Source: Acidovorax sp. A79
GTDB taxonomy: Bacteria > Pseudomonadota > Gammaproteobacteria > Burkholderiales > Burkholderiaceae_C
Assembly (NCBI RefSeq): GCF_041154505.1
Contig: NZ_AP028672.1
Coordinates: 2,706,501 to 2,770,500, forward strand
Direction of reading: 5' to 3'
DNA: 64,000 nt
Shown here: in pieces, positions 41,996-55,144 of the stretch
Numbering within the stretch: position 1 is the stretch's first letter
Layout of the letters: every line of letters starts with the position of its first letter
The notes under the pieces: generated by a model
Databases searched by the model: none
Seen by the model: the letters and a program-made list of their open reading frames with translations, nothing else
What the model was told of the DNA's origin: nothing
Translations under genes and position numbers: made by a program

Positions 41996-42892
41996 ATGTC
42001 GATCTACATCAACAAAGACACCAAGGTCATCACCCAGGGCATCACGGGCAAGACCGGCCAGTTCCACACCGAGAAGTGCCAGGAATACGCGAACGGCAAG
42101 AACTGCTTCGTGGCAGGCGTGAACCCCAAGAAGGCCGGCGAGTCGATCTTCAACATCCCGATCTACGCCTCCGTCAAGGAAGCCGCATCACAGACCGGCG
42201 CCACCGTGTCGGTGATCTACGTGCCGCCCGCAGGCGCTGCTGATGCGATCTGGGAAGCTGTGGAAGCCGACCTGGACATGGCCATCTGCATCACCGAAGG
42301 CATTCCGGTCAAGGACATGCTGATGGTGCGCAACAAGATGAAGGCCAAGGAAGCCGCCGGCGGCAAGAAGACCCTGCTGCTGGGCCCGAACTGCCCCGGC
42401 CTCATCACGCCCGACGAAATCAAGATCGGCATCATGCCCGGCCACATCCACCGCAAGGGCCGCATCGGCGTCGTGAGCCGCTCCGGCACGCTGACGTACG
42501 AAGCCGTGGCCATGCTGACCGAGGTGGGCCTGGGCCAGTCGAGCGCCGTGGGCATTGGTGGCGACCCCATCAATGGCCTGAAGCACATCGACGTGATGAA
42601 GGCGTTCAACGACGATCCGGACACCGACGCCGTGATCATGATCGGCGAAATCGGCGGCCCTGACGAAGCCGAAGCCGCCCAGTGGTGCAAGGCCAACATG
42701 AAGAAGCCCATCGTGGGCTTCATCGCTGGCGTGACCGCGCCTCCCGGCAAGCGCATGGGCCATGCCGGCGCGCTGATCTCCGGCGGCGCCGACACGGCCG
42801 ATGCCAAGCTCGCCATCATGGAAGAGTCGGGCTTCATCATCACCCGCAACCCGTCGGAGCTGGGCAAGCTGCTCAAGGCCCAGCTCAAGTAA
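41996..42892 (+). CDS. sucD: succinate--CoA ligase [ADP-forming], alpha subunit
   Basis: 298 residues. [19 protein letters not shown] at the CoA-binding start, [21 protein letters not shown], the motif [31 protein letters not shown], and the phosphohistidine at [15 protein letters not shown] (His about 256). Standard length. It completes the TCA ligase with SucC. A hairpin terminator follows about 94 bases later. Confidence 0.99.
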
Positions 42893-42986
42893 GCTGCCGG
42901 CCCTACACCGGCACGGGCATTCGTAAGCACAATTACGGACGCCCGCAGCCGCAAGGCCCGATAAACTGGCCGCTCCAATAAAAAGA

Positions 42987-43020
42987 GAAGCGCTCGGAAC
43001 CCTGGTTCCCGGCGCTTCTT
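42987..43020 (+). terminator. hairpin terminator after sucD
   Basis: GAAGCGC (42987-42993) pairs with GCGCTTC (43012-43018), with an inner GGAACC/GGTTCC stem. A short TT follows, so strength is moderate. It lies 25 bases before the terC ATG and may also act as the terC leader structure. Confidence 0.65.
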
Positions 43021-43044
43021 GCATTCATAACAGTGGAGTTCAGT

Positions 43045-43731
43045 ATGGAGTTTGTGCAAAGTGCCGATTTCTGGATCGGCCTGATGAAGATCGTCTGGAT
43101 CAACATCATTCTTTCGGGCGACAACGCCGTCGTCATCGCCCTGGCGGCCCGGTCCCTCCCTCCCCATCAGCAGCGCAAGGCCGTTTTCTGGGGGTCTGGC
43201 GCGGCAGTGGTGCTGCGCATCCTGCTCACCGTGGTGGCAGCCAAGCTGCTGGAGCTCTCGTTCCTGCAGATCGTCGGCGGCTGCCTGCTGCTGTGGATCG
43301 GCTTCCAGCTGCTCAGTGACGATGAGGAAGAGGAAGGCGAGTCGAAGGCCTATGGCAGCCTCATGGCGGCGGTGCGCACCATTCTCATTGCGGACCTCGT
43401 GATGAGCCTGGACAACGTGATCGCCGTTGCCGCTGCGGCGCACGGCAACGTGCTGCTGCTGGTGCTCGGCCTGGCCATCAGCATTCCGCTCGTGATCTTT
43501 GGCAGCACGCTGATGATCAAGCTCATGGAGCGCTTCCCCGCCATCGTGCTGCTGGGGGCCGCCTTGATCGGATGGGTGGGGGGCGAAACCATTGCCAATG
43601 ACGCAGCGCTGCATGGCTATGTGGTGGCGCATCCTTCGCTGCACTATGTGGCCGCGGCGCTTGGCGCGCTGCTGGTGGTGGGCGCCGGGAAATTCTGGCC
43701 CCACAGGGCCCGGCGGGAATCGGCAGCCTGA
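43045..43731 (+). CDS. TerC/YjbE-family membrane protein
   Basis: 228 residues, about seven membrane helices. WINIILSGDNAVVIALAARSLP and LIADLVMSLDNVIAVAAAAHG are the two TerC halves, each with the conserved GDN or LDN. An acidic loop SDDEEEEGESKAYG lies between. This family exports metal ions, including manganese, in characterised cases. The ATG at 43045 is preferred; AGTGGAG lies just upstream. A second TerC paralogue at 57777 has a riboswitch, this one does not. Confidence 0.88.
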   Translation: MEFVQSADFWIGLMKIVWINIILSGDNAVVIALAARSLPPHQQRKAVFWGSGAAVVLRILLTVVAAKLLELSFLQIVGGCLLLWIGFQLLSDDEEEEGESKAYGSLMAAVRTILIADLVMSLDNVIAVAAAAHGNVLLLVLGLAISIPLVIFGSTLMIKLMERFPAIVLLGAALIGWVGGETIANDAALHGYVVAHPSLHYVAAALGALLVVGAGKFWPHRARRESAA

Positions 43732-43741
43732 TTACGCCCCA

Positions 43742-43774
43742 TCACATGATGCAACAAATTGTTGCATCATGTGA
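43742..43774. promoter_or_regulatory. perfect 33-bp palindrome after terC
   Basis: tcacatgatgcaacaa (43742-43757), one central base, and ttgttgcatcatgtga (43759-43774) are exact complements. It begins 11 bases after the terC stop and lies about 170 bases before the CHASE2 kinase gene. No T-run follows on either strand, so terminator use is uncertain; an operator or other protein site is possible. Confidence 0.6.
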
Positions 43775-43911
43775 CAAAAGTGGCACCCTGACAGCGTGGC
43801 GGCCGCCCCGCCACGACAAGAAGGGCATCCGTGCCTGCAGGGGCCCAGCGGCGCCGCGGTAACGGCGACGGCCGCGCACCCTGCCCGCCCGGGCGCAGAT
43901 ATTGCTTTTAC

Positions 43912-43930
43912 CCACACAAATACAGTGTGG
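43912..43930. promoter_or_regulatory. CCACAC-N7-GTGTGG inverted repeat before the CHASE2 kinase gene
   Basis: ccacac (43912-43917) and gtgtgg (43925-43930) are exact complements with seven bases between. They end 12 bases before the GTG at 43943. Candidate operator or hairpin at the head of the signalling cluster. Confidence 0.4.
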
Positions 43931-43942
43931 AACCAATAGCAA

Positions 43943-46609
43943 GTGGGACGAACAACCTCGGGTCGGTGGCTGGGCATGTGGCGGACCGATGGGTTTCGGG
44001 GCGCAGTGGCCTCGGCGGTGGTCATTGCGCTGTGTGCGGCCGCTGGTGTCTTCCAGTCCCTGGAATACCGCGTGTATGACGCAGCGAGCAGTGTCGCCAC
44101 GCCACCCCCCTTGCCTGAAATTGTCATCGTCGGCATGGACGATGCCAGCCTGGCAGCGCTGGGAAGCGCACCCTGGTCCCGCGATGTCTACGCCCGGCTC
44201 GTCGACCAGCTGGCGGCCGCGGGCGCCAAGACCATTGTCTTGACCCCTTCCTTCGCCACCCCTGAATCCGACCGCGGCCTTGCCTACGTCCGCACGGTGC
44301 GGGAGACGCTTGCGCGTGCCGGGGAAACATCTCCGCTGGCCGCCGAGTTGGGCCGTGCCACCGCCGAGGCGGAGCAGGCGCTCGACACCGATGGCCGCCT
44401 CGCGGCCAGCATCCAGCGCGCCGGCAATGTGTTCCTGGCCTCAAGCTATGCCCTGGCCGGAGGAAAGGCCACGCCGCTGCCCCCCTATGCGCACCGCAGC
44501 GTCCTGCCCGACTCTGGGTCCTTCGCCACGCCCGCCACGTCGGCCCGGCACCCCATCGCGGAACTCGGCTCCGTGGCGGCAGGCGTCGGCCACCTGTCCA
44601 TGGAAGCGGATGACGACGGCCGCGTGCGCCGCATCCCACTGCTGCTGCGGTATGACGGAGTCGCGGTGCCCTCGCTGGCATTGCTGGCAACGCGGCACAG
44701 CCTGCATCTAGGCCCGAACGAGATCCGCACCCAGGACGAGCCGCGCGGTGTGCGTGTGGGCGGACTGCACATTGCCACGGACGAGGCCGCCGCCATGCAT
44801 CCGCGCTCTCATGCCGCGCAGGATGGCGCGACACCGTTTCCCACGGTGTCCTTTGCCCAGGCGCTCAGCGGCAAGGTGCCCCTTCACACCTTCAAGGACA
44901 AGGTCGTCTTGGTGGGGGACACCAGCGAGGCACTGGCGGCCCCCTGGGTTCAGCCGGGCGCACGGACGATGTACCCGGTCGAGATGCTCGCGCACACCGT
45001 CTCCGCCATGCGGCAGGGCCTCGGTGTGCAAAGGCCCTCCTGGGCGCCCGCGGCTGCATGGGGATCGGTGCTGGGGGCCTGGCTCTTCGTGGCCTTGGTC
45101 CTTCCCCGGCTTTCACGTGCCGCGAGATGGGCGCTGAGCGCAGTGCTGCTGTTGCTCCTGGCAGGCACCGAATGGGGCTTGCTGCGCCATGCCGGGCAGT
45201 GGATATCGTTGGTACCCGGCGCCCTGGCCTTGCTCGTGGGGGTGGTGGCATTCACCGCGCTGCGCATGGGGGGAGGCAGCACCCAGGAATCGTCCGGGGA
45301 AGCCGCCGAAACCGACCGCATGATGGGGCTGGCCCTGCAAGGGCAGGGGCAGCTCGACATGGCATTCGAGCGCCTGCGCAAGGTACCTCCCAGTGATGCC
45401 TTGATGGACAACCTGTACCACCTGGCGCAGGACTTCGAGCGCAAGCGCAACTTTGCCAAGGCCAAGTCCGTCTACAAGCACATCCTGCAGCACAACCGCG
45501 CCTACAAGGATGCATATGCCCGCTACAAGCGCGTGCGGGCCCAGCTGCAGAAGGACGTGGATGGCCCGCCCTCCAGCACGCCCGCGTCGGTCCCGCCGGC
45601 CTCGCCGCGCCTGCCGGGCGATGCCACAGCCGGTATCCCGATGCTCGGTCGCTACCGGATCGACAAGGAGATCGGCAAAGGAGCGATGGGCGTCGTCTAC
45701 CTGGGACGGGATCCGAAGATCGGGCGCGTGGTCGCCATCAAGACGCTGGCCCTGGGAGAGGAATTCGAAGGGGACGCGCTGATCGACGCGAGGGCCCGCT
45801 TCTTCCGCGAGGCGGAAACCGCGGGACGCCTGCAGCATCCCTACATCGTGACGATATTCGATGCCGGCGAAGAACACGACCTCGCCTACATCGCCATGGA
45901 ATTCCTCAAGGGCTCCGACCTGACGCAGGCATGCCGGGCCGGGCAGCTCCTGCCCGTGGACACCGTGCTGTCCATTGCGGCCCGCGTCGCCGAGGCACTG
46001 GACTATGCCCATGCGCACAACGTGGTGCACCGCGATATCAAGCCGGCCAACATCATGTTCGACGCCGCCACGGACGCCGTGAAGGTGACGGACTTTGGCA
46101 TCGCGCGCATCACGGACTCCAGCAAGACGCGCACGGGGATGGTCCTGGGCACCCCCAGCTTCATGTCGCCCGAGCAGCTCGCGGGCAAGAAGGTGGATGG
46201 CCGATCGGACCTGTATTCCTTGGGCGTCACGCTGTTCCAGCTGCTGACCGGGTCCTTGCCGCTGCGCGGCGAGTCGATGACCGAGCTCATGCACAAGATC
46301 GCCAGCGTGGACGCACCCGACATCCGCCAGCTGCGGCCGGAGCTTTCATCCGCGGTGGCCCGCGTGGTGGCCCTGGCCCTCCAGAAGCGCCCGCAGGCGC
46401 GCTACCAGACGGGGCGGCAATTCGCTTCCGACCTTCGCCAGGCAGGCGCAGCATCCTCGGCGCCGGAAGTGTTACCGGGCCCGGAAGCAGTCGTCTATGA
46501 TGCGGACCGCGATGCAACAGGGCATGAAATGGCGGATTTTCAGGAAACCGTGATGGAGCCACCCGCCGGGCGGGGTGCGGCATCCCCGCCGATTCCAGGC
46601 GCCCGATGA
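43943..46609 (+). CDS. CHASE2-domain serine/threonine protein kinase
   Basis: 888 residues. An N-terminal helix (VASAVVIALCAAAGVF) leads into an extracytoplasmic CHASE2 sensor (about 40-345: YDAASS, EIVIVGMDDASLAALGSAPWSRDVYARLVDQL, PTVSFAQALSGKVPLHTFKDKVVLVGDTSEALA). Three or so helices (about 368-437) and a TPR-like stretch (about 455-535) follow. The kinase domain is at about 568-830: GKGAMGVVYLG, AIKTLAL, HRDIKPANIMFD, DFGIAR, GTPSFMSPEQ. GTG start at 43943; ATG at 43976 is possible. Stop overlaps the PP2C ATG. Confidence 0.9.
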   Translation: MGRTTSGRWLGMWRTDGFRGAVASAVVIALCAAAGVFQSLEYRVYDAASSVATPPPLPEIVIVGMDDASLAALGSAPWSRDVYARLVDQLAAAGAKTIVLTPSFATPESDRGLAYVRTVRETLARAGETSPLAAELGRATAEAEQALDTDGRLAASIQRAGNVFLASSYALAGGKATPLPPYAHRSVLPDSGSFATPATSARHPIAELGSVAAGVGHLSMEADDDGRVRRIPLLLRYDGVAVPSLALLATRHSLHLGPNEIRTQDEPRGVRVGGLHIATDEAAAMHPRSHAAQDGATPFPTVSFAQALSGKVPLHTFKDKVVLVGDTSEALAAPWVQPGARTMYPVEMLAHTVSAMRQGLGVQRPSWAPAAAWGSVLGAWLFVALVLPRLSRAARWALSAVLLLLLAGTEWGLLRHAGQWISLVPGALALLVGVVAFTALRMGGGSTQESSGEAAETDRMMGLALQGQGQLDMAFERLRKVPPSDALMDNLYHLAQDFERKRNFAKAKSVYKHILQHNRAYKDAYARYKRVRAQLQKDVDGPPSSTPASVPPASPRLPGDATAGIPMLGRYRIDKEIGKGAMGVVYLGRDPKIGRVVAIKTLALGEEFEGDALIDARARFFREAETAGRLQHPYIVTIFDAGEEHDLAYIAMEFLKGSDLTQACRAGQLLPVDTVLSIAARVAEALDYAHAHNVVHRDIKPANIMFDAATDAVKVTDFGIARITDSSKTRTGMVLGTPSFMSPEQLAGKKVDGRSDLYSLGVTLFQLLTGSLPLRGESMTELMHKIASVDAPDIRQLRPELSSAVARVVALALQKRPQARYQTGRQFASDLRQAGAASSAPEVLPGPEAVVYDADRDATGHEMADFQETVMEPPAGRGAASPPIPGAR

Positions 46610-47415
46610 CGCACGCCTCCACATCCATGACCTACGAATTTTTCGCGCGGACCGACAAAGGCCGCGTGCGCACCAACAATGAAGACGCGGTGGCGGTCGA
46701 CCGGGATGCGCAGGTCGCCATCCTGGCCGATGGCATGGGCGGATACAACGCCGGCGAAGTGGCAAGCGGCATGGCCACCACCTTCATCCGCACCGAGATG
46801 GCCCGCTGGCTGGGGCAGGCAGGCGGCACGCCGCAATCCACCGACGTACGCCGCGCCCTGGAAATCTGCGTGGAGAACGCCAACCACGCGATCCTTGGAG
46901 CGTCGTTGTCCAACCCCCAGTACGCAGGGATGGGCACCACGCTGGTGGTGGGGGTCTTCCACGGCAGCCGCCTCATCCTCGGGCACATCGGCGACTCCCG
47001 CTGCTACCGCGTGCGGGACGGCGTCCTGCAGCAGATCACGCGCGACCACTCCTGGCTTCAGGAACAGGTGGATGCCGGCTTGCTCACCGCACAGCAAGCG
47101 GCCCTGTCGTCCAACCGCAACCTGGTCACCCGCGCGCTGGGCGTGGAGCCCAACGTCATGATGGAAGTCAACGAATTCCAGGTCGCGCCGAATGACTTGT
47201 TCCTGATGTGTTCGGACGGGCTCACGGACATGGTCGCGGACGCGGACCTGGCGGAACTGGTGCGGGCACCTGTTCCCCTGGAGGAAAAAGCCACACTGCT
47301 CATCGACACCGCCAATGCGAATGGTGGCCGTGATAACGTGAGCGTACTGCTGGTGCAAGCGGCCGCGGGAGGCAAGAAGCGCGGCCTTATGTCCCGATTG
47401 CTAGGGGCCGCGTGA
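46606..47415 (+). CDS. PP2C-family protein phosphatase
   Basis: 269-residue Stp1-like Ser/Thr phosphatase. Metal-site motifs are NNEDAVAVDRDAQVAILADGMGG, GMGTTLVVGVF, LGHIGDSRCYRVRDG, LFLMCSDGLTDMV and GGRDNVSVLLV. No membrane segment. The ATG overlaps the kinase TGA (46606-46609), so kinase and phosphatase are translationally coupled, the standard arrangement of a cognate writer and eraser. Confidence 0.93.
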   Translation: MTHASTSMTYEFFARTDKGRVRTNNEDAVAVDRDAQVAILADGMGGYNAGEVASGMATTFIRTEMARWLGQAGGTPQSTDVRRALEICVENANHAILGASLSNPQYAGMGTTLVVGVFHGSRLILGHIGDSRCYRVRDGVLQQITRDHSWLQEQVDAGLLTAQQAALSSNRNLVTRALGVEPNVMMEVNEFQVAPNDLFLMCSDGLTDMVADADLAELVRAPVPLEEKATLLIDTANANGGRDNVSVLLVQAAAGGKKRGLMSRLLGAA

Positions 47416-47459
47416 GTGGCCACTACTACAACAATTACTCATCACATCAGGAGTGGATC

Positions 47460-48110
47460 ATGCCCAGAATGATCGTTTCAATCGACGGGGTTGTCATCAA
47501 GGAAGTGCAACTGACCAAGGAGCGGACCACGCTGGGCCGGCGCCCCTACAACGACATCGTGATCGACAACCTCGCGGTGAGCGGCGAGCATGCCGTTATC
47601 CACATGGCGGGCCAGGATGTGGAGATTGAAGACCTGGGCAGCACCAACGGCACCTACGTCAATGCCAAGGCCGTCAAGCGGCAGGAACTGCGCAACGGCG
47701 ACACGGTCGAGGTGGGCAAGTACAAGATCCGCTTCCTGCACGAGGCCGAGGGGCAGAACTTCGAGAAGACCATGATCTTCAAGCCCGGCATGGTCCCGCC
47801 CGTCGGCGCAGCCGCGCGCCCCGCAGTTCCGGCGCCGGCTCCTGTTCCCATTTCCGCGGTCATCCGGGTCATGTCGGGAGCCGCCGCCGGGCGTGAAGTG
47901 TCGCTGCAGAAGGTGGTCACCACCATTGGCAAGCCCGGCGTGGCGGTTGCATCCATCACCAAGCGCCATCAAGGATTCGTGCTGGCCCACGTGGAAGGTC
48001 CCGACATGCCGTTGCTCAACGGCGCCTCCATCGGAACATCGCCCGTGCCGCTCAAGAACGGTGACCGGCTCGAACTGGCCGGCACGGAAATGCAGTTCGA
48101 ACAGAGCTGA
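47460..48110 (+). CDS. FHA-domain protein with a second FHA-like half
   Basis: 216 residues. The N-terminal FHA domain has TLGRRPYNDIVIDNLAVSGEHAVIHM, EIEDLGSTNGTYVN and LRNGDTVEVGKYKIRF, the phosphothreonine-binding set. A Pro/Ala linker (about 115-132) leads to a second half, VIRVMSGAAAGREVSLQKVVTTIGKPGVAVASITKRHQGFVLAHVEG and LKNGDRLELAGTEMQFEQ. It has the FHA fold order but lacks the canonical SGEH motif. The ATG follows AGGAG. Probable reader of the kinase's phosphorylation. Confidence 0.9.
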   Translation: MPRMIVSIDGVVIKEVQLTKERTTLGRRPYNDIVIDNLAVSGEHAVIHMAGQDVEIEDLGSTNGTYVNAKAVKRQELRNGDTVEVGKYKIRFLHEAEGQNFEKTMIFKPGMVPPVGAAARPAVPAPAPVPISAVIRVMSGAAAGREVSLQKVVTTIGKPGVAVASITKRHQGFVLAHVEGPDMPLLNGASIGTSPVPLKNGDRLELAGTEMQFEQS

Positions 48111-48174
48111 CCGCCACCGCCGGACTGCAGCAGCCCCATAGGCGGCTCATTCCGGCCCACTGCCCCTGGAATTC

Positions 48175-50436
48175 GTGCGCAATCCCGTCTTGCACCTGTT
48201 CTGGCGCCATGGGCGGCGCATGGCGGTCACGTTGATTCCGCTGGTATTTGCGCTGCTGCACATTGCAGGCGTTCTTCATCTCCAGGTCCTGGAGCGGCTG
48301 GAAAACATCATCTACGACACCCGGCTGCGCGCCACCATGCCGCGCACGCTGGACGAGCGCATCGTCATCGTCGACATCGACGAGAAAAGCCTGGAGCGGG
48401 TGGGGCATTGGCCCTGGGGGCGAGACAAGCTCGCCACCCTAAGCCGTGAATTGTTCGAGCGCCAGCAGGTGGCGGTCGTGGGCTTCGACGTCCTCTTTGC
48501 GGAAGCCGACGGAAGCTCGGGACTCTCCAGCCTCGAGCAGCTGGCCCGGGGCCCCTTGCGGGCCCAGGCAGGGTTCAAGGAACAACTCGTGCGCCTGGCC
48601 CCGGCGCTCGACTATGACGCGCTCTTCGCCCGGTCGCTCCAGGGGCGGCCGGCGGTTCTGGGCTACTACCTCACCAGCGACCGGGACGGAAGGACAAAAG
48701 GCGTGTTGCCCGCGCCAGCGCTCTCCCCGGAGCGGCTGCGCGGGCTGCCGCTGAAAGCCACTTCCTGGGGCGGTTATGGCAGCAACATCGAAGAGCTCGC
48801 CAGCGCCGTGCCCGCCGCAGGCTTTTTCAACTCCATCACCGATGACGATGGCGTCGTCCGCTCCCTCCCCCTGCTTGCGGAGCACCAGGGGAAGTACTAC
48901 GAATCCCTCGCGCTGGCGATGTTTCGCACGGTGCTTGGCATGCCGGAAGTGCACCCCGGCTTTGCCAGCCCCCTTCCTGAAGGCGGATATGACACGCTGC
49001 AGAGCGTCGTGCTGCGCCAGGATGGCCGCGCGCTGGCATTGCCCGTGGACGCCCAGCTCGCAACCCTCATCCCCTTTCGCGGCCCGGGGGATGTCGGTGG
49101 AGGGTCCTTTCGGTATATTTCCGCCTCCGATGTCCTGGAGGGCAAACTCCCACCCCACAACCTGCAAAACCAGCTGGTGCTGGTGGGCTCAACTACACCA
49201 GGATTGCTGGACCTGCGCGTGACCCCGGTGGGCCGCACCTACCCAGGCGTGGAGACGCACGCCAACATGCTCTCGGCCTTTCTGGACGGGAAAAGCATCG
49301 TGCGGCCAGACTACGCCGTGGGCTTTGATGCCGTGCAGCTGCTCATCGCAGGCCTTTTGCTGGCGGGGGCGCTGCCAGCGCTTTCGGCGACCTCCGCGGT
49401 CTTGCTCAGCCTTGGGACCGTCTCAGTCCTTGCCGTGCTCAATCTCTGGCTCTACCTCGCCCATGGCCTGGCCATGCCATTGGCTACCGTGGTGGTGATG
49501 GCGGTGTTCGCATTCGCCCTGAACATGGTCTACGGCTACTTTGTGGAAAGCCGCTCCAAGCGGGAACTGGCTGCGCTGTTTGGCACGTATGTGCCGCCGG
49601 AACTGGTGGACGAGATGGTCAAGCAGCCCGAGAAGTACAGCATGCAGGCGACCAACCAGGAGCTGACCGTGATGTTCTGCGACATGCGGGGGTTTACGGC
49701 CATGTCGGAACAGATGGAACCGCTGCAACTCCAAGCCCTGCTCAACGAGGTGTTCAGCCGGCTCACCCACATCATTCGCAGTCATCGCGGCACCATCGAC
49801 AAGTACATGGGGGACTGCGTGATGGCGTTCTGGGGGGCGCCGGTGGCTACGCCAGACCATGCGCAACTGGCGGTGCGGGCAGCGCTGGACATGGAGCAGG
49901 CAGTGGAACAGATCAATCTGTCGCATCGGGAGCGCAAGCTACCGGAGATTGGTATCGGCATAGGACTCAACACCGGCACCATGTGTGTAGGCGACATGGG
50001 CTCGGAAATGAGGCGCAGTTACACGGTCATCGGCGACGCGGTCAACTTGGGATCTCGCCTAGAGGGCCTGTCCAAGCACTACGGCGTTCGCACCGTGGCG
50101 AGTGAATCCACCCAAGCCCAGGCACCAGGTCTTGTCTGGCAAGAGTTGGATCGGGTGCGCGTCAAGGGCAAGGCTCAGGCTGTGGCTATCTATTCGCCGG
50201 TTGCCGCACTGCACGCCACGATGCCTCAGAAAGCGGAAGAATTATCCATATGGAAGCACTTTCTGGACGCCTATCGCGCCCAGGACTGGGCACAATGCGA
50301 CAAACTGCTGGTGAGCTTACAGCAAACTGCCACGCCATCTGCCATCTATGATATTTATGCGTCCCGCATGCAAACCCTGCAAGGGCAGACCTTCGACCCC
50401 CAATGGGATAGCGCCACCAATTTCGACACCAAATAG
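48175..50436 (+). CDS. CHASE2-domain class III adenylate/guanylate cyclase
   Basis: 753 residues. A first helix (VTLIPLVFALLHIAGVL), CHASE2 domain (about 40-370: IIYDTRLRATMPRTLDERIVIVDIDEKSLERVGHWPWGRDKLATLSREL), three helices (about 380-455), then the cyclase domain at about 490-690: MFCDMRGFTAMSEQM, DKYMGDCVMAFWGAP, SYTVIGDAVNLGSRLEGLSKHYG. Lys in DKYMGD and Thr in YTVIGD are as expected for ATP use, so cAMP is the likely product. GTG start at 48175. The cAMP phosphodiesterase-like gene follows after 12 bases. Confidence 0.93.
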   Translation: MRNPVLHLFWRHGRRMAVTLIPLVFALLHIAGVLHLQVLERLENIIYDTRLRATMPRTLDERIVIVDIDEKSLERVGHWPWGRDKLATLSRELFERQQVAVVGFDVLFAEADGSSGLSSLEQLARGPLRAQAGFKEQLVRLAPALDYDALFARSLQGRPAVLGYYLTSDRDGRTKGVLPAPALSPERLRGLPLKATSWGGYGSNIEELASAVPAAGFFNSITDDDGVVRSLPLLAEHQGKYYESLALAMFRTVLGMPEVHPGFASPLPEGGYDTLQSVVLRQDGRALALPVDAQLATLIPFRGPGDVGGGSFRYISASDVLEGKLPPHNLQNQLVLVGSTTPGLLDLRVTPVGRTYPGVETHANMLSAFLDGKSIVRPDYAVGFDAVQLLIAGLLLAGALPALSATSAVLLSLGTVSVLAVLNLWLYLAHGLAMPLATVVVMAVFAFALNMVYGYFVESRSKRELAALFGTYVPPELVDEMVKQPEKYSMQATNQELTVMFCDMRGFTAMSEQMEPLQLQALLNEVFSRLTHIIRSHRGTIDKYMGDCVMAFWGAPVATPDHAQLAVRAALDMEQAVEQINLSHRERKLPEIGIGIGLNTGTMCVGDMGSEMRRSYTVIGDAVNLGSRLEGLSKHYGVRTVASESTQAQAPGLVWQELDRVRVKGKAQAVAIYSPVAALHATMPQKAEELSIWKHFLDAYRAQDWAQCDKLLVSLQQTATPSAIYDIYASRMQTLQGQTFDPQWDSATNFDTK

Positions 50437-50448
50437 ACAGGTTGGCCC

Positions 50449-51240
50449 ATGAAGGTTCGCGTGCTCGGATGCTCAGGCTCCATCGCCAAGGGCTGCCGCA
50501 CGACCTCATTTTTGATAGGCGACAACATCCTGATTGATGCGGGAACTGGAGTGGGCGACCTAACGCTCGAAGAGATGCGCCAAATTGACCATGTGTTCTT
50601 GACGCACTCACACCTGGATCACATTGCGGCGCTGCCGCTGATGCTGGATGCAGTGTCGTCGATACGCAATGCGCCCGTGACGGTGCACGCGCTCGCAGAA
50701 ACGATCGCGGCGCTGCAAAACCATGTATTCAATAAAGTCATCTGGCCGGACTTCAGTGCCATTCCAACGCCTGATCGACCATTTCTTCGGTATGCATCCC
50801 TGTCTGTGGGTCAGCAGGCCATCCTTGACGATCGTCTCATCGAAGTGCTGCCAGCGGTCCACACGGTGCCTGCGGTCGGATACGCGGTCCTGGGCGACAC
50901 CGGCTGGTGGGCTTTTAGCGGTGATAGCGAAAGAAACCCCGCGTTCTGGCAATGGATCAACCGCATGCCTGTCTGCCAGTTGGTAGTGGAAACTGCTTTC
51001 AGCAACAGAGAGCGCATGCTCGCAGAGAGAAGCCTTCACCTCTCGCCGATCACCTTGGCGCAAGAACTTGCACAACTGCGCACGGACCGGGTTTTTCCCA
51101 TCTACATCACGCACACCAAGCCATCAGAAACTGCTGTCATCATGGAGGAGATCAAGCAACTTAGCACCGCGCCTTTGCTAAATTGCGGTTCGCCGCATGA
51201 TCTGCGGTGGCTCGAAGCGGGACAGGTTTTTGATTTGTAA
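50449..51240 (+). CDS. metallo-beta-lactamase-fold cyclic nucleotide phosphodiesterase-like protein
   Basis: 263 residues. VRVLGCSGSIAKGCRTTSFLIGDNILIDAGTG is the MBL start, the metal motif is LTHSHLDHIAALPL (about 51-64), further ligands are in HTVPAVGYAV, FSGDSE and ITHTKPS. It resembles class II 3',5'-cyclic-nucleotide phosphodiesterases of bacteria. It follows the adenylate cyclase closely, so degradation of its product is a strong inference. Base composition begins to fall in this gene. Confidence 0.82.
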   Translation: MKVRVLGCSGSIAKGCRTTSFLIGDNILIDAGTGVGDLTLEEMRQIDHVFLTHSHLDHIAALPLMLDAVSSIRNAPVTVHALAETIAALQNHVFNKVIWPDFSAIPTPDRPFLRYASLSVGQQAILDDRLIEVLPAVHTVPAVGYAVLGDTGWWAFSGDSERNPAFWQWINRMPVCQLVVETAFSNRERMLAERSLHLSPITLAQELAQLRTDRVFPIYITHTKPSETAVIMEEIKQLSTAPLLNCGSPHDLRWLEAGQVFDL

Positions 51241-51363
51241 CAGGCCGCTTGCAGTGACAGGGATGGCCAAACAAAAATGTCACCAAAAATGACAGTTTTC
51301 AGCTCTCAAGTGCTGCAACGCTTCTTCCGGTACTATTTGCAACGCTCAGCGCGATGTTCAATC

Positions 51364-51379
51364 TGGCACACAATGTGCT
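51364..51379 (+). promoter_or_regulatory. sigma-54 promoter for the pilin gene
   Basis: tggcacacaatgtgct has GG and GC separated by the 10 bases required for -24/-12 elements. The predicted start is near 51390, about 58 bases before the pilin ATG. Pilin genes in many proteobacteria use RpoN with PilR. Confidence 0.65.
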
Positions 51380-51447
51380 GCAAGCTTGCTAACCTGGCGA
51401 ATTGTTCGACAGGTACTCAGTTGCAAATTGACTCCCAGGAGGTTCCT

Positions 51448-51939
51448 ATGACGCGTACCCTGCAAAAAGGTTTTACCCTTATCGAACTGATGATCGTCGT
51501 CGCGATCATTGGTATTTTGGCTGCCGTGGCTCTGCCTGCCTATCAGGACTACACCATCCGCGCCAAGGTGTCGGAAATCATTCTGGCAGGCTCTGCTTGC
51601 CGCACCAGCATCACGGAAACCGTGCAGTCTACCGTTGGTACCACGCTGCCGGCAGCCGGCACATGGGGTTGTGAAATCAGCGCTGGTAGCGGCACGAAGT
51701 ACGTTGCCTCCATGACAACCACCAGCGCGGGCAAGGTCGTGATCACATCCTCTGCTGCTACCGATCTAAAGGATGCCGCAAGCAAGGATGTGACGCTGGT
51801 TCCCATGGTGAATGCAACCACTCCATTTACCAATACCGATGTCAATAAAACCGTCTGGGGCTGGCGTTGTGGTCTGGGTAGCGAAGGAACGACGATGCCC
51901 ATCAAGTACCTGCCCGGCTCATGCCGCGGACAGATTTGA
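51448..51939 (+). CDS. pilA: type IV major pilin, PilA-like
   Basis: 163-residue prepilin with an eight-residue positive leader and the cleavage/methylation site [31 protein letters not shown], a classic class IVa pilin. The globular part has Cys residues at SACRTS, WGCEIS, WRCGLG and GSCRGQI, the last two able to form the C-terminal disulfide loop. The ATG is set by an AGGAGG eleven bases upstream. Sigma-54-type promoter upstream, terminator just behind the stop. The next gene is a putative pilin glycosyltransferase. Confidence 0.96.
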
Positions 51940-51957
51940 TCGCCGAGCGCGAAGCAA

Positions 51958-51982
51958 GAAAGGCCCTTCGGGGTCTTTTTTT
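51958..51982 (+). terminator. terminator after the pilin gene
   Basis: AAGGCCC and GGGTCTT pair around a TTCG tetraloop, with one G-T pair, and TTTTTTT follows. It separates the abundant pilin message from the oligosaccharyltransferase gene. Confidence 0.85.
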
Positions 51983-52000
51983 ATGGACGAAGGGAACATA

Positions 52001-53704
52001 GTGAACCGGAAACTAAGCAAGGGTGCGATGGTGGGTTTAATCACGATGGCATTGTCGTGGTTGATTGCAAATAAGGCGTACCCTTGGCTGCCCGCATGGA
52101 ATGAAGGGCTCGCATTTGCAGCAACGTTGATTCTCTGGATCGCGGCGGCGGTGCAAACAAAAAAAATCCAGCCGCCCGCCCCTGGTATCGCATGGCCCCT
52201 CCTCGTGTTTGTTTTTCTCGCCCTTGTCGTGGTATGGGGTCAGCATTTCGCCGGGCTTCTTATTTTCTCCGGTGATGCTTTCTTGATATCCCTCTACCTA
52301 TCTACCTTTCTCATAGCACTTCATGCGGGATCATTAATTGAAAAATCAAATGAACGCGAAGAATGGATAATCGCTTTCATTGCTACCATCGCAACTTCCG
52401 CCATCCTCTCGATCGGTATCGCCCTCATACAATGGACAAAAACGTGGGATTTAGCGGTCTTTTTGATGGAGACCGACATTGGCGATCGCCCTGGTGCAAA
52501 TCTGGGTCAGATAAATAATTTTAGCACCCTCTGCTTCATAGCATTTTGCGGAATATTATATCTACGAAACCAGGGGCAATTGCATTTGAGCAGCACTATA
52601 CTGGCCGGGGGGGTTCTTACTTTTGGCATGGCAATTACGCAATCGAGAACGGGCTGGCTGCAGATAGTTTCCATTTTTTTGTTAACTATTTTTTCGTCGG
52701 GGAACAAAAAACAAAAAATTACCACTGGATTGCTGTCGGTCACATTCGCAGTTTGGTACATGGCGATTCCTTGGCTTCAAAGCACCGCGCTTCTTACGGC
52801 GGACCAACAAACCCGGGCGCTTCCACTGCACGACGTGCGACTCACCATGTGGTCAGCGTTGCTGGATGCAAGCTCCATACGCCCTTGGTTCGGATATGGC
52901 TGGCTGCAAACAGGATGGGCGCAGCAGGTCACTGCTGAAACGCACCCTATTCTGCGAACGTACATGAGTTACTCTCACAATCTTGCATTGGACTTGATTG
53001 TTTGGAACGGATGGCCAATTGCGATTATTCTGCTAGGTCTACTTTTTGTATGGTTCTTTCAAAACCTCAGCCACCGCAAGCGAGATGATGGAAATAACTA
53101 TTTATACTGCGCCGTACTCGGAGTATTCATCCACGGAATGCTCGAATATCCATTGACGTACGCTTATTTTTTGATGCCATTAGGATTAATAATGGGCTAC
53201 CTGGATGGCACGCAATCAAATCTGGTGAAATGCCATTTCAAATGGAAGCAAATCGTAATCTTCATGTTCACCACATGCATTTTGTATTTTGCAATCTGTG
53301 TAGACTACATCAATGCCGTCCCACTTGATGTAGCAGTGCGGCTGCGCTCTGCACAAATCGGCCCGCGCCCTGCATACAACGAGCAACCTACGAAATTTCT
53401 CGTTTTGAATCAGCTCGCTACCATGTACGCCATGAGAACAATGCAGGAAGACGAATATGCTATAGAAAAAAATATTACGCTCATGGCGAAAGTAGTACAA
53501 CGCTACCCTTATTCTCCAGCCCTATTTCAATATGCGCTAGCAAATGCAATGCATGGTGATCGCCTTGTTGCCGAAACGCAACTCAAAGTACTATGTGGCA
53601 TATATACAGCGGCCCACTGTATAACCATAGAAAAACGCTGGCAGATATTTCAGCAAAAATATCCGGAGAGCGTGGGCTTGATTATTTTTCCGAAAATTCA
53701 ATAG
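52001..53704 (+). CDS. PglL/PilO-like O-oligosaccharyltransferase (Wzy_C family)
   Basis: About 567 residues with some ten or more membrane helices and a C-terminal soluble part. The Wzy_C/PglL loop has SRTGWLQIVSIFLLTIF, then LTMWSALLDASSIRPWFGYGWLQTGWAQQV and SHNLALDLIVWNGWP, the ligase-type large periplasmic loop with conserved Arg/His. The C-terminus LVLNQLATMYAMRTMQEDEYAIEK resembles the PglL VirB-like tail. GTG at 52001 has GAAGGG seven bases upstream; ATG at 51983 is an alternative. Directly behind the pilin, it probably glycosylates it. AT-rich. Confidence 0.85.
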   Translation: MNRKLSKGAMVGLITMALSWLIANKAYPWLPAWNEGLAFAATLILWIAAAVQTKKIQPPAPGIAWPLLVFVFLALVVVWGQHFAGLLIFSGDAFLISLYLSTFLIALHAGSLIEKSNEREEWIIAFIATIATSAILSIGIALIQWTKTWDLAVFLMETDIGDRPGANLGQINNFSTLCFIAFCGILYLRNQGQLHLSSTILAGGVLTFGMAITQSRTGWLQIVSIFLLTIFSSGNKKQKITTGLLSVTFAVWYMAIPWLQSTALLTADQQTRALPLHDVRLTMWSALLDASSIRPWFGYGWLQTGWAQQVTAETHPILRTYMSYSHNLALDLIVWNGWPIAIILLGLLFVWFFQNLSHRKRDDGNNYLYCAVLGVFIHGMLEYPLTYAYFLMPLGLIMGYLDGTQSNLVKCHFKWKQIVIFMFTTCILYFAICVDYINAVPLDVAVRLRSAQIGPRPAYNEQPTKFLVLNQLATMYAMRTMQEDEYAIEKNITLMAKVVQRYPYSPALFQYALANAMHGDRLVAETQLKVLCGIYTAAHCITIEKRWQIFQQKYPESVGLIIFPKIQ

Positions 53705-53779
53705 GCAACCATATTGCACTACATCCATGCAATTGACAGCATTAAATTGGCCTCTACCAAAAATATAATTAAAATTGAA

Positions 53780-54553
53780 ATGACCAAAAACGCCATGGCA
53801 AACTGGAGAGCCCGCTCAGTGGCTAGCGGGATTCATTTTTTTATCAGCGTGTCTATTGCAGGGTTAGCAGGCATGCTGGTATTCGTGCTGTGGTACCCGT
53901 ACCCTTACAGCGAAATTTCCGGCGGGCGTCAACTTTTTACATTAGTTGTCGCCGTCGATGTGGTTCTAGGGCCATTGATGACCTTGATCATCTTTAATCG
54001 CGCAAAGCCACGGCGAGAATTGCTGAGCGATCTTACCGTCGTGGCCATGTTGCAACTGGCAGCGCTGGGTTATGGCCTATGGACCGTTTTCGTCAGCCGC
54101 CCAGTCCATCTGGTTTTCGAATACTCCCGCATGACCGTCGTGCATGCAATCGATACAACCCCGGATCTTCTGGCCAAAGCGCCACCTGGCTTGCAACGCC
54201 TGCCTCTGAGGGGGCCTACCGTTGTCGCACTACGTCCCTTTGAGAGTCCCGCAGAAGAATTCGATGCAACGATGGCGGCATTAAATGGGGCTCCTCTGGC
54301 AGCGCGCAGTGACCTGTGGCAACCTTATGTCACTGCTACGCCCCGCATCCTGAAGGAAGCCAAGCCCGCAAGCGATCTGCACGGCCATTTTCCGGGTCAA
54401 GCGGATCTAATCAATCAAGCCATCGCAGCCACGGGTCGGTCAGTTGCGGGTCTGCGCTATCTGCCTCTGCTAGACCGTCATGTGGCATGGACAGTGCTGC
54501 TGGACGCTGTTACGGCCGAGCCGCTCGGCTTTGTGCCTTTGGACTCTTTCTAG
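53780..54553 (+). CDS. TfpX/TfpZ-family type IV pilin accessory protein
   Basis: 257-residue membrane protein. SGIHFFISVSIAGLAGMLVFVLWYPYPYSEISGGRQLFTLVVAVDVVLGPLMTLIIFNRAKPRRELLSDLTVVAMLQLAALGYGLWTVFVSRPVHLVFEYSRMTVV is the conserved TfpX/TfpZ block with four helices. The rest is a soluble domain. In Pseudomonas such proteins are encoded next to pilin alleles and help pilin function. The ATG at 53780 is chosen; a TTG 66 bases earlier is less likely. Last gene of the pilin cassette. Confidence 0.88.
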   Translation: MTKNAMANWRARSVASGIHFFISVSIAGLAGMLVFVLWYPYPYSEISGGRQLFTLVVAVDVVLGPLMTLIIFNRAKPRRELLSDLTVVAMLQLAALGYGLWTVFVSRPVHLVFEYSRMTVVHAIDTTPDLLAKAPPGLQRLPLRGPTVVALRPFESPAEEFDATMAALNGAPLAARSDLWQPYVTATPRILKEAKPASDLHGHFPGQADLINQAIAATGRSVAGLRYLPLLDRHVAWTVLLDAVTAEPLGFVPLDSF

Positions 54554-54579
54554 GACGAAAGGGGCACCGGCCCAAATTC

Positions 54580-54599
54580 AGCTCAAGCCAAATTGAGCT
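54580..54599 (+). terminator. weak hairpin after the pilin cassette
   Basis: AGCTCAA (54580-54586) pairs with TTGAGCT (54593-54599). It sits between the convergent TfpZ-like and moaC genes. No T-run follows at once, so termination strength is unclear. Confidence 0.4.
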
Positions 54600-54643
54600 C
54601 TAACGTTGTGGGCTGTGTTTTTGATATCTATCCATTAGGAATG

Positions 54644-55144
54644 TTAGTCGCCTGGCGCCTCCGCCAGGAAGCTACCCGACCTTCCCCCGTGCTTTTCCAC
54701 CACACGCACATCATGGATAGACATACCCCGATCAACGGCTTTGCACATGTCATAAATAGTGAGCAGCGCCACCTGCACAGCGGTGAGGGCTTCCATCTCC
54801 ACGCCAGTGGGACCGACGGTTTCCACGGTTGCGGCACAGAATATGCCGATAGCGTCCAACTTGCGAGCACTGGATGCTTCAAATTCAATAGCAACGCGGG
54901 TCAAGGCCAGAGGATGGCACAACGGAATAAGGTCGCTAGTTTTCTTGGCGCCCTGGATCCCGGCGATGCGGGCAATGCCGAGCACGTCGCCCTTTTTAGC
55001 GTTACCGGCTTCGATGAGGGCCAAGGTCGAGGGCTGCATTTCAATACGGCCGCTGGCAATGGCGATTCGGTGAGTGGCTGCCTTGGCGGCCACGTCAACC
55101 ATGTGGGCCTGCCCCTGAGCGTCAAAGTGAGTGAGTGCGGACAT
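54644..55144 (-). CDS. moaC: cyclic pyranopterin monophosphate synthase MoaC
   Basis: 166-residue enzyme of molybdenum-cofactor biosynthesis acting after MoaA to form c[62 protein letters not shown] (active-site Lys and His), [15 protein letters not shown] and the end [12 protein letters not shown] are standard. Length normal. Divergent from the M48 protease gene. It stands without other moa genes here, so the pathway must be encoded elsewhere. Confidence 0.97.

Follow-up and report, generated by a model that had tools for sequence, protein, structure and literature searches.

Serine/threonine phosphorylation and cyclic AMP (cAMP) have each been tied to type IV pili, usually as separate stories without named links between them. 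A locus of Acidovorax sp. A79 raises the question of whether the two signals can converge: within a 64,000-nucleotide stretch of the genome (the window; NZ_AP028672.1, positions 2,706,501 to 2,770,500), five genes at 43943-51240 encode a CHASE2 Ser/Thr kinase (K), a PP2C phosphatase (P), a forkhead-associated (FHA) protein (F), a CHASE2 class III cyclase (C) and an MBL-fold predicted phosphodiesterase (M), with pilus genes beyond. We find that these genes form a real, old and conserved signaling block. On balance, we judge the chances slightly better than even that the block controls type IV pili as a membrane-sensing module, in which F would serve as a GarA/OdhI-like phospho-switch beside the cAMP signaling of C and M. 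The gene set is compact, combining a predicted phosphosite (Thr 104 of F), predicted docking sites (the K tail), a candidate target (C) and both erasers.

As the initial annotation had described, the five reading frames lie on the same (+) strand, the K and P frames share 4 bp (46606-46609), and every frame scores above its Pfam cut-off. K (43943..46609; 888 aa) carries a CHASE2 domain at residues 26-385 and a kinase domain at 571-822 (Pfam CHASE2 and Pkinase), and the two CHASE2 receptors score 163.8 and 192 bits against PF05226 (cut-off 26.3). Against the PASTA-kinase model NF033483, K reaches 301.2 of the required 450 bits by matching over the kinase domain alone, and a Pfam scan of K found no PASTA repeats. 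Catalytic residues appear intact in K (VAIK, HRD, DFG) and M (HxHxDH); those of K, together with two activation-loop threonines, are conserved across a 101-row alignment. P (46606..47415) is identified by Pfam and by the Stp1/IreP model NF033484 (245 bits against 230). F (216 aa) occupies 47460..48110 of a reading frame open from 47412; its start is more likely the ATG at 47460, which follows an AGGAG, than 47412, and P and F therefore would not overlap. C (48175..50436; 753 aa) is a predicted adenylate cyclase, separated by 12 bp from M (50449..51240; Pfam Lactamase_B_2 and PDEase_II). Given the K/P overlap, the F start at 47460 and the 12-bp C-M spacing, the run from K to M could be a single transcript. 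A promoter and terminator scan of the block returned one promoter-like and one terminator-like site, no more than shuffles give, and no Rfam element was found within 42500-54700.

Matches to K occur in 183 of 399 genomes of the order (at E 1e-60, many covering the kinase domain only), 86 of 369 of the class (1e-100), 112 of 299 of the family (1e-90) and 80 of 299 of the phylum (1e-100, with an alignment as query). We compared 60 order loci, hand-picked with full-length K favored, 20 loci each from class, family and phylum, and 80 named loci, labeling genes by profiles built from the first matches; the sets overlap, some named loci repeat genomes of the family set, and the named contigs are frequently truncated, 13 of the 80 having less than 7 kb downstream. 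The full-length kinases of the order loci are 41-52% identical. K-P is found in 50 of the 60, K-P-F in 49, K-P-F-C in 42 and all five genes, in the same order and on the same strand, in 38. The corresponding counts for K-P-F, addition of C and all five are 19, 16 and 15 in the family set and 76, 67 and 56 among the named loci. K-P-F persists at 18 class loci, six of which (L162-L167) have a CHASE2 cyclase that follows F directly in the opposite orientation, and at nine phylum loci, where C is found at none of the 20. No K-P-F was recognized at 11 order loci (L056, L060, L064, L065, L070, L071, L074, L077, L079, L085 and L086), among which at least L060 is cut by a contig end and L064 is mislabeled. 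Conservation of the five-gene order is far above chance, and the synteny anticipated across Burkholderiales is not restricted to this strain. Across all 200 K-centered loci, K is accompanied by P-F-C in 132, P-F in 40, P alone in 7 and neither in 21, and none of the 200 pairs K and C without F. The block is modular, and F is the element shared by every arrangement seen.

The initial annotation had called F a tandem FHA protein; Pfam detects a single FHA stretch (FHA1, residues about 1-95), and the second domain is seen only as a modeled beta domain (about 131-215) that lacks the usual FHA residues. In the AlphaFold2 model (mean predicted local distance difference test score 80, predicted template modeling score 0.59), the two beta domains flank a disordered, low-confidence linker at about 100-128. 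The phosphothreonine-binding residues of FHA1 (GR, S, H, STNG) are 100% conserved in 87 F rows. Within the linker lies the motif FEKTMI (47760..47777), whose threonine, Thr 104, is the proposed switch phosphosite and is present in 93% of the same 87 rows and in all 45 named F rows. A strict expression derived from this motif matches 68 of 88 F proteins and none of the P (87), C (60), M (62), ATPase (50), HD-GYP (39), pilin (49) or Wzy (26) proteins, giving no sign, among the 60 cyclases, that C itself would carry the phosphosite. Sites found by a looser expression in other block proteins (four in ATPases, one in C) were set aside as near the shuffled values of 0.6 each.

By both sequence and fold, F is nearest to GarA/OdhI, and it scores 69.9 bits against the NCBIfam OdhI model, below the cut-off of 200. 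As in the PknG/PknB-GarA/OdhI systems of Actinobacteria, a small FHA protein bears a conserved threonine motif adjoining its FHA domain; a further proposed likeness is that the unphosphorylated form is functional. The systems differ in that the motif of F is C-terminal to the FHA domain (FEKTM, Thr 104) whereas that of GarA/OdhI is N-terminal (ETT), a type of phosphosite that F lacks. The block also adds a C-terminal beta domain in F and a CHASE2 receptor kinase, and its setting is cAMP and pili rather than 2-oxoglutarate dehydrogenase. We regard the block as a likely proteobacterial counterpart of the GarA/OdhI logic.

In the PknG/OdhI pair, the FHA substrate docks on an extension of the kinase that is autophosphorylated, according to excerpts of one report (PMC8546545). 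A motif of the F-linker type recurs in the C-terminal tail of K, a region of variable length among kinases; in the window it reads FQETVM (46538..46555) and places Thr 869 as the proposed autophosphorylation and docking site for F. From 201 kinases, 191 could be cut to yield 178 non-redundant tails, of which the 76 of at least 35 aa were counted: the expression [FYWADHNG][EDQ][KQRE]T[VMAI] finds 55 sites in 44 of them, against a mean of 1.44 and a maximum of 7 in 1000 shuffles, and no site in 65,413 aa of kinase bodies. At the DNA level, a corresponding pattern gave 60 matches in 33 block-bearing genomes, 11 in K tails, 21 in F and 28 elsewhere, the last figure lying near the 22 of a reversed-pattern control; 24 of the 33 genomes have a match inside the block. 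The window genome has only three matches, one in K, one in F and one located before a likely start codon. The motif common to F and the kinase tails is a new link between the two proteins and, together with the lack of any K-C locus without F, is consistent with the earlier view of F as the connecting element. We consider it quite probable that K phosphorylates and docks F. Among short-tailed kinases outside the window's family (for example L036, L044, L047, L063 and L073), many end in a conserved -VD[IV][ST]L-type C-terminus.

Genomes that lack K and show a decayed motif amount to natural knock-outs, and they indicate a kinase-dependent site. Of the family sample, 55 genomes match C but yield no K at 1e-90; F was sought in 33 of these and found in 29. 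In 28 of the 29, by hand count, it precedes C in the same orientation by no more than 250 bp. No K-like kinase stands beside F in the 33 genomes searched, their other kinases lying elsewhere and being 33-44% identical over the kinase domain. Three such loci that were fetched have the gene order TerC-P-F-C-M-pilin. Nine K-less loci, two of them from one genus, were scored for the F motif as [FY][ED][KR]T[MVL]: three keep it, three have it changed to KTT and three have lost it. The motif is thus retained in 3 of 9 K-less loci versus 65 of 77 named K-bearing ones (Fisher p 0.002, uncorrected for phylogeny), and the FHA1 residues remain intact. This decay of the motif without K, a second new link, with FHA1 kept, indicates that the site depends on K and that F has some role in its absence.

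What F acts on is suggested by the same genomes, in which C is its constant neighbor. Judging from this position, we hold it possible, at somewhat less than even chances, that F acts on C by contact. An alternative is that K-P-F and C-M are two independent modules, co-located through shared or co-expressed pilus genes and making no F-C contact. Such independence would account for K-P-F without an adjacent C in 7 of 49 order and 12 of 18 class loci (convergent cyclases being counted as present), as well as for P-F-C-M without K; but loci without K nonetheless retain P and F beside C-M (P-F-C in 8 of 8 short loci; L321-L323), and the adjacency of F and C in K-less genomes, along with the missing K-C pair without F, makes the two-module explanation unlikely. 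CHASE2 on K and the presence of C also covary. K retains CHASE2 in 51 of the 112 K-bearing family genomes, and C lies near K in 45 of these 51 versus 11 of the 61 without it (Fisher 4e-14, no phylogenetic correction), a join that left out the 25 weakest C rows (E above 1e-87), none of which by inspection is near a listed K. We did not take this co-loss of CHASE2 and C as proof, since phylogeny was not corrected for and some CHASE2-less kinases may not belong to the block.

Inspection of the cAMP side supports a writer paired with an eraser. C exceeds the class III cyclase threshold of PF00211 (91.2 bits against 21.9), and a 58-row consensus conserves a Lys/Thr pair, a metal-binding Asp and Asn/Arg residues. 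We take the Lys/Thr pair to be adenine-specifying, and assume likewise the customary roles of the Asp and Asn/Arg residues; on this reading the cyclases would not be of the cGMP type, a case that the initial annotation had named as contrary to its interpretation. M exceeds PF02112 (PDEase_II; 51.2 bits against 23.7) across a 61-residue stretch, retains the class II cyclic-nucleotide phosphodiesterase signature HxHxDH / HVFN..IWPD in a 58-row consensus, and matches the PDE1 structure 4ojv (E 3.9e-9), while falling far below the NCBIfam cyclic nucleotide-degrading phosphodiesterase model NF041851 (28.9 bits against 400). Comparison of loci bears out the earlier observation that, for both signals, the eraser stands beside the writer. 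M is present and C missing at L054, L075, L093, L094, L200 and L201.

The genes 3' of M point to a pilus output. In the window, a type IV pilin (51448..51939, +, in a reading frame open from 51277) has its prepilin sequence starting at about 51448, about 207 bp past the end of M, and scores 38.5 bits against the TIGR02532 prepilin N-terminus model (cut-off 16.3). It is followed on the + strand by an O-antigen-ligase-like membrane protein (Pfam Wzy_C/Wzy_C_2; 51812..53704), possibly for pilin glycosylation, and by a TfpX/TfpZ family pilin accessory protein (53714..54553; NF041437, 223 bits against 200). In many Betaproteobacteria, M is succeeded by a GAF-MshEN-T2SSE ATPase, a GAF-HD-GYP protein, a pilin and a Wzy_C protein: all five block genes with a PilB-type ATPase are found at 34 of the order loci, with HD-GYP in addition at 30, and with a pilin within 7 kb at 21. 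The full block is joined by a pilin at 14 and an ATPase at 9 family loci, and at 36 and 39 named loci, respectively. We thus find the initial annotation's pilus link plausible on gene neighborhood, and consider a pilus output of the block reasonably likely.

The ATPases of relatives offer a candidate cAMP-reading pilus motor. For one such enzyme (L047), the closest structures are those of PilB (3jc8, 1.1e-105); its GAF domain matches an adenylate-cyclase GAF (1ykd, 2.3e-23), next cyclic-nucleotide phosphodiesterase GAFs and, more weakly, the GAF domains of an HD-GYP protein (4mcw) and a chemoreceptor (3oov); cAMP binding by this domain may be treated as a lead only. At nine of the 60 order loci (for example L043:6307-7359), a gene for a cyclic-nucleotide-binding and rhodanese protein, possibly a dedicated cAMP receptor, lies between M and the ATPase. 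The MshEN match of the block ATPases is weak (36.4 bits), and no RLGxxL-type motif, which we take to be the cyclic di-GMP (c-di-GMP) motif of MshEN, was seen by eye in a 50-row ATPase consensus; for both reasons we do not claim c-di-GMP readout.

These neighbors bear on two further explanations. F could act directly on the pilus machine, either the PilB-type ATPase or another pilus protein, with the cyclase as a parallel input, as loci with K-P-F followed by a pilin and no C (L083, L090, L092) or with K-P-F-M-ATPase and no C (L054, L075, L093) would suggest. In the window genus, as in other members of the family, F is retained without a block ATPase, however, and the 50 ATPases contain no strict motif match (a result that addresses shared phosphosite motifs rather than binding), so that we think this possibility quite unlikely. 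Alternatively, the output might be envelope or metal stress, with the pilin a bystander. The gene immediately 5' of K (43033-43731) belongs by profile scan to the TerC/YjbE family, which frequently adjoins K in family loci, a Wzy-type ligase lies 3', and pilus genes do not accompany K-P-F in the class and phylum samples; yet TerC is inconstant across the order, where ATPase, HD-GYP and pilin are repeatedly associated with the block, and we consider the stress explanation very improbable.

In the pilus-control module that we favor, K would sense a periplasmic signal via CHASE2 and, in lineages having the tail, autophosphorylate its C-terminal threonines. FHA1 of F would dock on the phosphorylated tail, allowing K to phosphorylate Thr 104 of the linker; phospho-Thr 104 would then be bound by FHA1, either its own or a neighbor's, to switch F off or over, and P would reset it. 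F, at least partly in its non-phosphorylated state as in GarA/OdhI, would act on a neighbor, most likely C. The cAMP made by C and degraded by M would be read by pilus or transcription partners, plausibly the GAF domain of the neighboring PilB-type ATPase in many relatives and another receptor in Acidovorax. In its fullest form, the arrangement would be a previously undescribed circuit comprising a proteobacterial GarA-type switch, a kinase whose docking bait is a series of copies of the phosphosite found in the switch itself, direct tuning of a CHASE2 adenylate cyclase by F, and cAMP readout by the pilus extension ATPase through a cyclic-nucleotide GAF domain, with Acidovorax-like lineages having lost the gated motor and kept the circuit beside the pilin; we regard this complete version as doubtful.

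Several observations weigh against the favored module. C is missing from 7 of the 49 order loci that keep K-P-F, and K is absent beside P-F-C in one group of genomes. Some loci have M but no C (4 of 60 in the order set, 2 of 20 in the family set and 2 of 80 among the named loci), so M may act on cAMP from other sources or on a different substrate. The tail motif is confined to 44 of the 76 long tails, with 102 shorter tails lying outside the count and the short tails in the alignment showing no motif by eye; its expression was defined only after the tails had been inspected, and the stricter F-derived expression finds just 5 sites in 100 K proteins (0.2 when shuffled). Nine of the 33 genomes have no block match to the DNA pattern, the F motif is found in just one of eight F proteins of the phylum sample, and the Fisher tests carry no correction for phylogeny. 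The window genome has no GAF-ATPase: its best match is limited to the motor part, in a frame that is GAF-free by inspection. The initial annotation's reading of one sensory unit with CHASE2 on both outputs was largely right, yet drawn too tightly, and an obligate union of the five genes is not supported: K is separable, C can be missing, and many family kinases lack CHASE2.

Parts of this arrangement have precedents. Excerpts of a report on Campylobacterota (PMC9239204) describe a CHASE2 adenylate cyclase with a neighboring cAMP phosphodiesterase, in a cluster with FecR and TPR genes; those excerpts do not mention a kinase-PP2C-FHA part. In Bdellovibrio DgcB, going by the titles of PDB entries 6hc0, 6hc1 and 6hbz, the FHA domain of a nucleotide cyclase binds a phosphorylated tail peptide, but there FHA and cyclase share one chain and the product is c-di-GMP. 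In Pseudomonas aeruginosa, deletion of the Ser/Thr kinase of the Stk1/Stp1 pair abolishes twitching and lowers pilus proteins; the abstract and section 21 of that study (PMC8560001) leave the mechanism unresolved and describe no CHASE2-cyclase-FHA block. CHASE2 is listed among Ser/Thr kinase domains in cyanobacteria (PMC2877116, in part), whose pili are under cAMP control (PMC7690835, in part). A literature search that most subscription papers lay outside returned no description of the block; a 2018 A. citrulli screen, mentioned in part of PMC9147443, gave 50 twitching mutants in 20 genes, a list that could include genes of the block.

Three further features of the window and its genome deserve mention. 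Between the TerC-family gene and K lies a perfect 16-bp inverted repeat with a 1-bp center (43742..43774), possibly an operator; a same-species locus (L182) keeps the repeat, both arms being altered there in a matching way, and none of the 13 further loci examined from related genera has it. A reading frame at 54644-55144 on the - strand is probably MoaC, since MoaC is encoded at the corresponding position of L035. Finally, the window genome encodes two more CHASE2 proteins (L002 and L004), one histidine-kinase-like and one cyclase-like as judged by eye.

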